Below, one piece after another: positions 53,812 to 57,032 of a stretch of 64,000 bases of DNA (position 1 is its first letter; every line of letters starts with the position of its first letter). The DNA is from Anaerocaecibacter muris. Its GTDB lineage: Bacteria; Bacillota; Clostridia; Christensenellales; Pumilibacteraceae. The DNA is taken from the NCBI RefSeq assembly GCF_943192945.1, contig NZ_CALPCE010000002.1, positions 124,001-188,000 on the forward strand, given 5' to 3'. The position numbers and the translations under genes were made by a program. The notes beneath the pieces are model-generated. The model ran no database searches. It was given only the letters and a program-made list of their open reading frames with translations, and was not told the origin of the DNA.

Positions 53812-55143
53812 ATGCGGTTGAACAAGAGGCAGATTGCCGTAATAACTGTTTTAAACGTGGTAATAGCCGCGCTTGTCGCGGCGATATTTCTGTTGCCCGC
53901 GGTCGCGTCGGCTAACGGCGGAGGCGGCGGCAACGGCGGAAACACGGACGTAATAACTCCGCCGACCGACGAGCACGAAAAACTACGCGAGCCGACGGCG
54001 GGGCGCGTGCCGCAAATACAGCGCGAAACTCGACTGATGGGCACGGGCGACGAAACCGTCGAGGCGGTGCATTTCGTGGACGGAATAGCGTTTATCTTCG
54101 GCAACGCGACGGTGAGCGGACTGGACTTCGACAGCTACGGCGGCTTTTTGTGCATGGTCGGGTCGAAGGGCAATATTTTGGGCTTTACATACTTCGACGG
54201 TAGGCTTACCGCGGTCGGCGTTGCCGAGGGCGGGTTTGCCGCGGCGACGATTGTGCGCGGCGGCACGGACGAGGCGGTCGCTCGGCTGTACTCGGTCGAT
54301 TACGACGGCAAGGCGGAGGAGGTCGCAACGCTCGACGGCGCGGCGTCCGACATCATTGCGATAGGCGGCACGCGCGTCGCCGTCGTCACAAAGCCCAACG
54401 TCAATTCGTTCAAGCTCACCGAATATGCGGTGACGGGCGACGGCTGGGCGGCGGAACACAACACCCGCATAACGAGCGGCTACACCCTCGATTATTTCGA
54501 CTGTTACCGCTTGGGCGACGGGTATATACTCGCGGCGCGCGCGTACAGCCTGCCGCGATACGATTCGATAGTGTTTTACACATTCGAAGCGGGCGGCGAC
54601 GCGACGGCGCACTTTTACGGCGGGAGCGGCGACAGCATTATGCAACCTTATGCGGTCATGCCGTACCCCGAAGGTTACGTCGCGCTGTGTCGGCGCAACG
54701 GCGTAGCGGCTATTGTTACCGTCGATTATACGTTTATGAGCTACCGCAGGGATTTGCTCGGCTTTGCGTTTGACGGCGCGCGCCTGTTGTATTGCAACGA
54801 CCTGTATTACGCCTGTTTCGATAGCGCGGACGGATCGACCGTGTACGAGCTCGACGAAAAACTGAACCGCAGAACGTTGAGCGCGGCGGACGGCATGTCT
54901 CCGAGCTGCGCTATTAAGTCCGCGGGCGCGATAATAGTCGGCGCGACCGACGACGGCAAAGCGAAATTGACAGACGCGTCGGGCAGTCGCGCGCTGTCGC
55001 TCGATATTCAAAGCGGCGTATTCTACGGCGGGTATCGCACTACCGACGGAAACACCGTAATAGTTCTGTCCGCAACGGGCGGCGACGCATTGACCGCGCC
55101 GTCGGGCGGCAGGGACGTGTACGTCATTTGCGTAAAAATATAA
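53812..55143 (+). CDS. Exported beta-rich protein (propeller-like)
   Basis: A 443-residue protein with a Lys/Arg-rich start and one hydrophobic segment (about 8-36), a Gly/Asn-rich linker (about 37-50), and then about 390 residues of short beta strands with Gly-Asp turns. Repeated patterns such as FVDGIAFIFGNATVSG, LCMVGSKGNILGFTYFDG and GVFYGGYRTTDGN suggest a seven-bladed propeller. It is likely exported or membrane-anchored. AAAGGTG precedes the ATG. No catalytic motif or family is recognised. Confidence 0.7.
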   Translation: MRLNKRQIAVITVLNVVIAALVAAIFLLPAVASANGGGGGNGGNTDVITPPTDEHEKLREPTAGRVPQIQRETRLMGTGDETVEAVHFVDGIAFIFGNATVSGLDFDSYGGFLCMVGSKGNILGFTYFDGRLTAVGVAEGGFAAATIVRGGTDEAVARLYSVDYDGKAEEVATLDGAASDIIAIGGTRVAVVTKPNVNSFKLTEYAVTGDGWAAEHNTRITSGYTLDYFDCYRLGDGYILAARAYSLPRYDSIVFYTFEAGGDATAHFYGGSGDSIMQPYAVMPYPEGYVALCRRNGVAAIVTVDYTFMSYRRDLLGFAFDGARLLYCNDLYYACFDSADGSTVYELDEKLNRRTLSAADGMSPSCAIKSAGAIIVGATDDGKAKLTDASGSRALSLDIQSGVFYGGYRTTDGNTVIVLSATGGDALTAPSGGRDVYVICVKI

Positions 55144-55220
55144 GGTAATCGAGCAAACGGGATTTTATATAAAAACGAAAAAACAATCTATCATTTCGAG
55201 CGAAATTGCTTTACGCCTTT

Positions 55221-55264
55221 GCGGCGGTTCGCCTAGATCCCTCGACTGCGCTCGGGATGATGGG
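55221..55264 (+). repeat. Extragenic repeat, A orientation
   Basis: A 44-nt unit starting GCGGCGGTTCGCC and ending CTCGGGATGATGGG. The same unit recurs at 58621, 58832, 58901, 59112, 59180 and 59249, and inverted at the right edge. Confidence 0.85.
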
Positions 55265-55317
55265 TGTATAAGCATTTCTTTTCTATATATTATACCGAAG
55301 CGACCGAGCCTTTTCAC

Positions 55318-55377
55318 TCATCATTTCGACCGAAGCGAGGAACGAGCGAAGCGGAGAAATCAAGGCGTTAGCCGCAC
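55318..55377 (+). repeat. Extragenic repeat, B orientation (inverted relative of A)
   Basis: A 60-nt unit starting TCATCATTTCGACC and ending GCGTTAGCCGCAC. Its two ends are the reverse complement of the A unit ends, so A and B face each other. The same unit recurs at about 58727-58784 and 59006-59063. Confidence 0.8.
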
Positions 55378-55421
55378 TTATCATAATACCGCCGCAATGA
55401 TGTAAAGCTGTCATTAAATAC

Positions 55422-55733
55422 TTACTTCAAAAACGCGAGTATCAAAAACTTGACTGCGTTGCGCTGTTCGGCGGTCAGCCGCTTTATCATCTTGGACAGA
55501 ATAAGCGTTTCTTGCGCGTCGCCGCTCGCCGAGGCAGGGTAGTGATCTCTCCCGAAAAGTTCGTCGATACTCACGTCGAATATTTCCGCAAGCCGCAGTA
55601 TCGTGTCGCAGTCGGGTTCGCTCGTTCCGTTTTCCCAGTTGCTCACGTTGCGCTGTACGTTGTCTATGCGTTGCGCAAGTTCCTTTTGCGTCATGCGACA
55701 CTCCTCGCGCAACTCCTTTATTTTGAGTTTCAT
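55422..55733 (-). CDS. XRE-family HTH transcriptional regulator
   Basis: A 103-residue protein. Residues about 6-60 form a Cro/CI-type helix-turn-helix (CRMTQKELAQRIDNVQRNVSNWENG, shown here as its key residues T15, Q16, W-E-N-G-T), then IDELFGRD, and a short C-terminal helical segment (LTAEQRNAVKFLILAF) for dimerisation. It is divergent from a strong promoter that drives a candidate small RNA, with a 25-bp palindrome between. It is probably the regulator of that RNA and perhaps of itself. GGAG-like sequence upstream is weak. Confidence 0.88.
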   Translation of the reverse strand: MKLKIKELREECRMTQKELAQRIDNVQRNVSNWENGTSEPDCDTILRLAEIFDVSIDELFGRDHYPASASGDAQETLILSKMIKRLTAEQRNAVKFLILAFLK

Positions 55734-55790
55734 AATCGACCCCGTTATGTATATTTTTTACTACAATACCAAAAAAATTACTTAAAATGC

Positions 55791-55819
55791 TTGACAAAGT
55801 AAAAAATATGCTATATAAT
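55791..55819 (+). promoter_or_regulatory. Strong promoter divergent from the XRE gene
   Basis: A full consensus: TTGACA (55791-55796), 17-nt spacer, TATAAT (55814-55819). Transcription should begin near 55826 and no gene-sized ORF follows on this strand. Confidence 0.9.
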
Positions 55820-55824
55820 GTCGA

Positions 55825-55849
55825 TAAATAGTAAATTATTTACTATTTA
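55825..55849. promoter_or_regulatory. 25-bp palindromic operator candidate at the small-RNA start
   Basis: An 11-bp half-site TAAATAGTAAA and its exact inverse flank TTA. It covers the predicted start site, so a dimer such as the neighbouring XRE protein could block transcription. In the RNA it would also form a 5' hairpin. Confidence 0.75.
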
Positions 55850-55987
55850 TGGGAATTAACGCTATAAAATTTCTATAAGCGGCAATAATTCCCGAGTGAA
55901 ACGGGGTACGCGCAAGAAATTGCGTTACCTATAAATTTTCCCCCATAATATGAGAGTGTCGTCCTTCGGGGCGGCACTCTCATTTTT
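55826..55987 (+). ncRNA. Candidate structured small RNA, about 160 nt
   Basis: The unit is bounded by a consensus promoter and a strong terminator, and lacks a convincing ORF (one 9-codon frame at 55849 without a ribosome site). Predicted elements in order: the 5' palindrome; a stem 55851-55858 with 55886-55893 enclosing a CGCT/AGCG hairpin; a stem GGTA/TACC (55905-55908 with 55926-55929) capped by CGCAA-GAAA-TTGCG, a GNRA tetraloop; a C-rich single strand (55940-55944) that could pair with GGGG at 55903-55906; and the terminator. It matches no class I can recognise (not 6S, SRP, tmRNA, RNase P or a common riboswitch). It ends against murG, which is convergent. Confidence 0.6.
55952..55987 (+). 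terminator. Terminator of the candidate small RNA
   Basis: A 14-bp stem (55952-55965 region with 55968-55981) with a C(UUCG)G tetraloop and two G-U pairs, then ATTTTT. It overlaps the murG stop codon on the other strand. Confidence 0.88.
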
Positions 55988-57032
55988 AAGCGTTTTGGGT
56001 CGGCTGTTGCGCGATTGTTTCGCGTATGATTTTGCAAATGCGCGCCGTGCCGTCAACTGCTATGCCCGACATTGTCGAAACGTACTTGAACTTATTTTTG
56101 TACATGTCGCGCGCGGTTGCAACAAGGCTGTCCGCGGTCATGTCGGCTTCGCGCAGCAATTTTATCGCGCCCTTGTTTTTAAAGTGTTCGGCGTTTTGGA
56201 GTTGGTCGCCGCGCGACGCTTTTTCGAGCGGGATTGCGACGGTGGGTACTTTAAGCGCAATGCACTCGGCAAGCGCGTTTGCGCCCGCGCGGGTGATAAT
56301 CACGTCGCAAGTCGCGTAAAGGTCTTTCATGTTGTTTTCAAACTCGACGGGGCAGTAGCCTGTCTGCTTGGGCGCGCCCGACTTATTTTTGCCCGTGACG
56401 TGAATAACGTCGAAAGTCTTTAACAGTTCGGGCAGGGCGGCGACGGTGCAGTCGTTTATAGCCGTCGCGCCCGACGAGCCGCCTATGACGGCGAGCACGG
56501 GCTTGTTGCCGTTAAGCCCGTAAGCGGCTTTTTTGCTCGCGCCGCGGTACAGTTCCTGATTAAGCGGGGTGCCGACGTACAGACCGTTTTTGAACTTTTG
56601 CGCGCAGTCCTCGAACGCGCAAAGCACGTATTTGCTTTTGCGCTTTGCGAGCTTTGTTGCAAGCCCCGCCGAAAAATCGCTTTCGTGGCTCAACACGGGT
56701 ATGTTCTTTGCAGCGAGCACGGCGGGGAGCGCGGCGTAACCGCCCTTGCTGAAAATGAGTTGAGGGTTGATTTCCGCGAGCGCGGCTTTGGCGGACTTGA
56801 CGCACGAAGTCAGTTTAAAGGGCACGGCTATGTTTTTAAACATGGCGTCGCGGCGGAACTTAACCGTTTTTATGGAGTAAAAGGGAATACCGCGTTCGCG
56901 GCAGATGTTTTTTTCCATGCCGTCGCCGCCGACGTACACGCAGTTGTATTCCGATTTAAGTTCGTTTATAAGCGCAATGTTGGGCATGACGTGTCCCGCC
57001 GTGCCGCCGCCTGCGAATACTATGGTTTGCAT
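55986..57032 (-). CDS. murG: MurG, lipid II-forming GlcNAc transferase
   Basis: A 348-residue GT28 enzyme transferring GlcNAc to lipid I at the inner membrane face. The N-terminal G loop is GGGTAGHVMPNIALI (8-22). KGGYAALPAVLAA and HESDFSAGLATKL follow, with the C-domain loop VIGGSSGATAIN and donor-site TRAGANALAECIALKVP. GGAG precedes the ATG. It stands apart from the division/wall cluster where murG usually lies, although several Clostridia carry dispersed murG-like copies. Confidence 0.92.
   Translation of the reverse strand: MQTIVFAGGGTAGHVMPNIALINELKSEYNCVYVGGDGMEKNICRERGIPFYSIKTVKFRRDAMFKNIAVPFKLTSCVKSAKAALAEINPQLIFSKGGYAALPAVLAAKNIPVLSHESDFSAGLATKLAKRKSKYVLCAFEDCAQKFKNGLYVGTPLNQELYRGASKKAAYGLNGNKPVLAVIGGSSGATAINDCTVAALPELLKTFDVIHVTGKNKSGAPKQTGYCPVEFENNMKDLYATCDVIITRAGANALAECIALKVPTVAIPLEKASRGDQLQNAEHFKNKGAIKLLREADMTADSLVATARDMYKNKFKYVSTMSGIAVDGTARICKIIRETIAQQPTQNA

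Follow-up and report, generated by a model that had tools for sequence, protein, structure and literature searches.

An RstR-like repressor gene divergent from a predicted ORF-less RNA beside murG in Anaerocaecibacter muris

The window examined here is a 64,000-nucleotide stretch of the Anaerocaecibacter muris genome (contig NZ_CALPCE010000002.1, positions 124,001 to 188,000). Between murG and the gene for a 443-aa protein lies a small XRE regulator gene, and divergent from it on the plus strand is a promoter followed by a predicted transcript without an open reading frame (ORF). The features are given below in window coordinates, and counts of regions refer to the xre upstream regions compared further on.

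53812..55143, plus strand: gene for a 443-aa uncharacterized protein, the usual convergent neighbor of murG in the genus
55422..55733, minus strand: xre, encoding a 103-aa Cro/CI-type (RstR-like) repressor by Pfam HTH_3, NCBIfam RstR and PDB sequence match
55768..55782, no strand: operator-like site O3, ACCAAAAAAATTACT, between the promoter and xre; one mismatch or none in 34 of 47 regions
55791..55819, plus strand: sigma-70 promoter TTGACA-17-TATAAT of the RNA, 12/12 match
55798..55812, no strand: putative operator O1, AGTAAAAAATATGCT, in the promoter spacer; fixed offset, one mismatch or none in 42 of 47 regions
55826..55990, plus strand: predicted ORF-less transcript of about 160 nt, its start inferred from the -10 box and its end from the terminator
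55830..55844, no strand: putative operator O2, AGTAAATTATTTACT, core of a 25-bp palindrome (55825-55849) at the start site; no mismatches in 47 of 47 regions
55950..55983, plus strand: predicted terminator hairpin with 15 pairs and a UUCG loop, from folds; tail TTTTAAGCGT on the plus side and ATTATGGGGGA on the murG side
55986..57032, minus strand: murG, the convergent neighbor (TIGR01133, E 1.2e-69)

The murG product scores 235 bits against TIGR01133, slightly under the cut-off of 250, and the 443-aa protein had no match in Pfam and NCBIfam searches. Between the -35 box and the xre start codon lie 57 bases, in good agreement with the initial annotation, which had placed a Cro/CI-type regulator about 60 bp away on the other strand; the gene encodes a 103-aa helix-turn-helix (HTH) protein. 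On the plus strand, the next plausible gene is a hydrolase from approximately 57212. With murG on the opposite strand and no plausible co-directional gene before the hydrolase, a cis-acting leader is not supported, and the earlier preference for an RNA gene over a leader holds. The terminator hairpin ends at 55983, adjoining the murG stop codon at 55986. At 55180-55410 lie intergenic, repeat-like elements whose arms are inverted, and stretches that resemble them by eye are found downstream of murG in genomes G004 and G009.

The XRE protein matches Pfam HTH_3 (1.2e-14) and consists of the HTH plus about 40 residues. Against the NCBIfam RstR family NF041951 it scores 59.4 bits, with residues 2-101 aligned on 4-99 of 108, which falls short of the curated cut-off of 80 bits; by sequence, the protein is RstR-like, and by curated score it is not an RstR. 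Its best PDB sequence match is 7t8i, an Xre-family regulator of ICEBs1 (residues 4-62, E 3.3e-10), and the NCBIfam DicA model gives 31.7 bits against a cut-off of 101. Models of XRE antitoxins match the HTH weakly and far under their cut-offs, and PHROGs and PADLOC models match mainly the HTH part. According to PMC12565409, XRE regulators are often autoregulatory, dimeric, and palindrome-recognizing. The viral contigs searched contained no relative, and the relatives of the XRE protein in 17 phage and 53 plasmid records all share less than 60% identity; a phage origin was rejected. A 36-bp part of the promoter stretch is common to one phage record.

The promoter consists of TTGACA (55791-55796) and TATAAT (55814-55819) on the plus strand, separated by 17 bp, a 12/12 match that bears out the earlier call of a consensus promoter. 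The 25-bp palindrome that had been noted at the start site is likewise present. For comparison, upstream regions were collected from 89 loci with the same XRE protein, the window counted, and 53 of these are distinct over the first 140 nt; the weaker XRE relatives L036-L063, as well as L098, L107, and L108, were excluded ahead of this count. By script, 47 of the 53 regions have a promoter at our criterion of at least 10/12, with a 17-bp spacer in all, and 26 of the 47 are 12/12. The six regions under the cut are L072, L083, L093, and L147 (8, 8, 9, and 9 of 12, respectively), L132, which lacks the promoter and the start of xre, and L171. On re-reading, L171 turns out to have a protein ORF behind a 12/12 promoter, together with both O1 and O2, and including it changes the promoter count to 48/53 and the count of protein ORFs behind the promoter from 42/47 to 43/48.

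At a fixed offset in the promoter spacer, the motif AGNA-N7-TNCT (O1) is present with one mismatch or none in 42 of the 47, compared with 0.8% of shuffles. The same motif at the start site (O2) is found without mismatch in all 47 as the best of 18 offsets, lying at offsets 38-40 in 38 regions and at 29 in nine; with 18 offsets searched, 11% of shuffles have a start-site match of at most one mismatch. In 34 of the 47, an O3-type site with one mismatch or none is present on the xre side, a count that is the best of eight offsets and has no shuffle baseline. In the window, the operator-like sites O3, O1, and O2 are spaced 30 and 32 bp; support is good for O1 and O2, which overlap the RNA promoter, and weaker for O3. 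The 25-bp palindrome is best read as DNA, namely as a probable start-site operator of a repressor module. The suggestion that the XRE protein binds near 55825-55849 also gains support, as a prediction, from an operator-like site standing there in register in every region with a promoter of at least 10/12.

The RNA would contain, in order, an inner stem-loop that forms an interrupted stem (55851-55893), a GAAA-capped hairpin (55904-55930), a C-rich and mostly unpaired stretch (55931-55948), and the terminator. The GNRA-capped hairpin and nested stem described initially are recovered in the folds as the GAAA-capped hairpin and the interrupted stem preceding it. None of 200 shuffles is as stable as the whole transcript (z = -6.9), and z is -6.2 with the palindrome removed, but this stability is due mainly to the terminator hairpin. 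The inner 100 nt, with palindrome and terminator removed, fold only slightly better than shuffles (z -2.2, 6/200 as stable; in a repeat, z -2.4, 9/300). As to the C(UUCG)G terminator of the initial annotation, the 15-pair UUCG hairpin and its tail stand, yet the T run after the hairpin is short and a simple terminator scan did not list 55950-55983, listing a weaker site at 56008-56026. The T run faces the RNA, not murG. The 12-mer ACGCGCAAGAAA occurs in both the xre mRNA (55508-55519, minus strand) and the GNRA hairpin of the RNA (55908-55919, plus strand); by a rough estimate, about 0.05 exact 12-mer pairs are expected in the xre/RNA stretch.

No ORF of at least 60 codons with a ribosome-binding-like site starts within 150 nt of the -10 box in the window, using a script with a loose list of ribosome-binding motifs that reports ORFs of at least 60 codons or running off the contig. 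This agrees with the proposed unit of about 160 nt without an ORF, as no ORF with such a site was found between promoter and terminator. At gathering thresholds, the only Rfam match in the whole window is a tRNA at 281-354; below threshold, manA-II scores highest in the region, at 24.2 bits against 100 and on the opposite strand. A known RNA family was rejected, given no Rfam match at or above the gathering threshold, and likewise for loci L003, L085, L168, and L179. The overall initial picture is supported by the sequence: divergent from the regulator lies a predicted regulated unit that is ORF-less, ends in a terminator, and matches no Rfam family.

Relatives of the RNA were sought by DNA and covariance searches. 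Among 20 genus genomes, the DNA search found it only in its own genome. A covariance model built on the inner 100 nt returned itself and one chance-level match from 74 family genomes; the only outside match at E <1 was in G019 (22.1 bits, E 0.17), where no such promoter or operator is seen by eye. Against 74 sources (the window and 73 relatives' loci), the model returned itself and three matches of 14-15 bits. The reach of these covariance searches is limited because the model (R1) is a single-sequence one, the window sequence entered twice, and because stricter filters were used in the family-genome search. A looser DNA search with promoter plus RNA gave matches at E 0.1 or lower in 52 of 151 genomes; of the matches listed, those from other genomes are approximately 50 bases or shorter, and the top one among them (G009, E 2.7e-4) falls on the promoter. 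With no homologue from either approach, conservation of the RNA in the genus, the family, or the relatives' loci was rejected. Covarying homologues, which the initial annotation had looked to, were not found in the 20 genus genomes, 74 family genomes, or 73 relatives' loci, and a covariation test is impossible because there is no homologue to align; of the two findings that the initial annotation named as jointly refuting it, no covarying homologues and no transcript, the first is thus observed. A decayed protein gene inside the RNA was also rejected, as 40 divergent protein sequences gave weak matches only (best E 0.024). No direct repeat with both copies inside the RNA was found, and a literature search on XRE regulators paired with divergent sRNAs yielded nothing on point among the matches listed.

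In 17 of the 19 other genus genomes, the convergent gene lying no more than 1.5 kb from the 3' end of murG encodes the 443-aa protein, and in the remaining two it is purL; neither xre nor such an RNA was found beside murG in any of the 19. By this comparison, the xre-RNA islet is an insertion. The only other genus member with the XRE protein is G009 (2/20 counting the own genome), where xre and murG are on different contigs and the xre module fronts a 155-aa protein gene. The protein is present in 4 of 74 family genomes and in at least 8 of 396 genomes sampled from the order, the own genome counted in both and two of the eight being weak. With the L085 protein as the query, it is present in at least 45 of 398 genomes of another family of the order. 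At most 12 candidates per genome were scored in the order and other-family samples, making these counts lower bounds. The distribution of the XRE cassette in relatives is patchy.

In 42 of the 47 regions, a protein ORF with a ribosome-binding-like site starts within 150 nt of the -10 box. L066 has a 169-aa ORF without a clear ribosome-binding site, L170 has a zinc-ribbon ORF broken by a stop, and in L132, from outside the 47, a zinc-ribbon-type ORF ends after about 40 codons and is followed by a terminator-like hairpin. The 40 divergent protein sequences fall into 13 groups unlinked by BLAST at 1e-4 (largest n=12), and the payload of the cassette therefore varies. The commonest repressor partner is a group of proteins of approximately 105-160 aa (L035, L070, L073-L075, L087, L089, L102, L156, L157, L166, and L172), an uncharacterized recurrent pair; the protein fragments taken from L035 and L073 gave no Pfam match.

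An intact promoter with no such ORF ahead of the terminator is found in the window, L085, and L168. The inner 120 nt of L085 fold with z +0.45 and the inner 89 nt of L168 with z -1.65. TTG-started frames without a ribosome-binding-like site run for 52 codons in L085 and 75 codons in L168, and the L168 hairpin could belong to a gene on the opposite strand. In L085, a zinc-ribbon gene lies beyond the terminator behind a second promoter-like sequence, and it resembles the gene that immediately follows the promoter in L094 and L096. Sequence kinship of the three ORF-less transcripts was rejected, with their scores reached by 104/300 shuffles for window-L085, 47/300 for window-L168, and 116/300 for L085-L168. 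L072, L083, L093, and L147 have neither an ORF with a ribosome-binding site nor a good promoter. A promoter seems to decay once its product is lost. This makes a mild argument that the window transcript is used, although a recent loss would give the same picture.

The own genome has two further small XRE loci. In L003 (contig C2 near 245228, positions 1287-1795), a 66-aa XRE gene diverges from TTGACA-17-TAATAT with a AAGAAGATAACTTCTT site in the spacer; approximately 230 nt without a ribosome-binding-site ORF by eye are followed by a terminator-like hairpin, and the fold hardly beats shuffles (z -1.2, 22/200 as good). This is possibly another repressor with a non-coding target. In L179 (contig C3 near 62594, positions 854-1953), the gene for a related XRE protein of 109 aa is divergent from one for a 203-aa protein that is membrane-like by eye. 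L179 shares the promoter/operator layout, its GAGTAAATTATTACTC is close to the window operator, and cross-talk between the two repressor systems is possible.

We tentatively favor, at somewhat short of an even chance, an RstR/DicA-like autorepressor that targets a lineage-specific, possibly trans-acting sRNA. From the elements that sequence comparison supports as predictions (the promoter, the O1 and O2 sites, the module, the lack of an ORF, and the terminator), we infer a scheme of repression, O3 autoregulation, and base pairing by an RNA made in the cell. The XRE repressor would bind AGNA-N7-TNCT operators, keeping the divergent consensus promoter off through O1 and O2 and limiting its own synthesis through O3. 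Some signal would relieve repression, and the ORF-less RNA of about 160 nt, with its two internal hairpins, C-rich stretch UUUUCCCCCA, and terminator, would be made. It may then act in trans by base pairing, for example at G-rich ribosome-binding sites. C-rich seed regions of Firmicutes small RNAs pair with ribosome-binding sites, and the unpaired UUUUCCCCCA ahead of the terminator resembles such seeds.

The sRNA reading is preferred because operator-like sites are in register (start site 47/47, spacer 42/47), because a 12/12 promoter is kept without a protein gene whereas L072, L083, L093, and L147 reach only 8-9/12, because the terminator T run faces the RNA and not murG, because L085 and L168 share the layout with different ORF-less transcripts and terminators, and because none of the 40 divergent protein sequences convincingly matches the RNA region. 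Against it, no homologue was found in the other genomes searched, the inner structure is modest, L085 has a z of +0.45, the three ORF-less transcripts are alike no more than by chance, and the T run is short and the terminator scan silent. There is a somewhat smaller but substantial probability that the locus is instead a relic, a reading that the initial annotation did not raise, in which the original protein gene was lost and the promoter was left joined to unrelated sequence and to a terminator that shields murG by blocking read-through. The transcript may then exist without a function of its own. This fits the protein ORF that 42 of the 47 regions at or above the 10/12 promoter cut have at the position of the RNA, the other decay states in L170 (zinc-ribbon ORF with a stop) and L132, the RNA homologues not found, and the weak inner structure. 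It does not fit the perfect promoter, given 8-9/12 in the four other regions without a ribosome-binding-site ORF, although a recent loss would look alike, and no trace of the relatives' protein genes is seen in the RNA region.

An effect mainly on the end formation or stability of the murG mRNA, whose 3' end the transcript overlaps as antisense or insulator, is improbable. The hairpin end at 55983 is beside the stop codon at 55986 and a read-through murG mRNA would be antisense to the RNA, but overlapping convergent 3' ends are ordinary, the 19 other genus genomes have no such RNA or xre at murG, and the G009 module is on a different contig from murG. Of the antisense to murG proposed initially, the possibility through 3'-end overlap stands and nothing else does. 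A tiny peptide encoded by the transcript, in parallel to the proteins that relatives have at this place, is quite improbable: 9 codons from ATG 55849 and a basic 12 codons from a later GTG are readable, yet neither frame has a ribosome-binding-like site by eye, a relative for comparison is absent, and the ORF script covered frames of at least 60 codons. We give very little credence to the idea, also proposed initially, that the RNA is an antitoxin or otherwise forms a toxin-antitoxin-like pair together with the XRE protein. The antitoxin models do match the HTH, but weakly and far under cut-offs, in a protein that is HTH plus about 40 residues; the flanks are murG and the 443-aa protein without a family match, and relatives carry many protein groups in place of the RNA. 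A type III system was rejected on the same flanks and on the lack of a direct repeat with both copies inside the RNA.

A broader and more speculative view, which we consider unlikely as it stands, is that repressor, operators, and promoter form an exchangeable cassette at varying sites that swaps its payload, usually carrying small proteins of unrelated groups and sometimes brand-new sRNAs. Regulated sRNA genes would then be born by capturing a ready-made, tightly controlled promoter, with the window, L085, and L168 as independent births and L003 as maybe a further case with a different XRE protein.

Known systems resemble the sRNA reading in part. GcvA is a LysR-type protein and an activator, whereas a small XRE repressor is inferred for the window. 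In layout, GcvA/GcvB is like the locus in the window: the regulator gene stands back to back with a gene for a short, terminated RNA, which it controls in GcvA/GcvB and would control in the window, and GcvB-like RNAs are reported in many genera, according to PMC1557403. Unlike GcvB, the window RNA turned up in a single genome, and in most relatives a protein gene takes its place; it fails the conservation expected of an established sRNA family. RstR repressors (NF041951) share nearly full-length similarity with the XRE protein and its length of about 100 aa. They belong to filamentous phages, whereas the window flanks tested are murG, the hydrolase, and proteins of unknown function. The DicA/dicBF/DicF system of the E. 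coli Qin prophage combines a CI-like repressor of small size with an sRNA under its control and with three operators lying between divergent genes (a layout of the dicA region and of lambda), as predicted for the window, and PMC10448788 describes DicF as processed from a polycistronic mRNA with protein genes. Unlike DicF, the window RNA would be a stand-alone unit.

In the lineage of the window, the named relatives are mostly metagenome assemblies. A functional RNA at this locus would add a regulated sRNA to that lineage, one for which the regulator and probable binding sites have already been pinpointed. The 53 distinct upstream regions with one operator code may also provide a tractable system for target replacement in a repressor cassette, including the replacement of a protein by an RNA.
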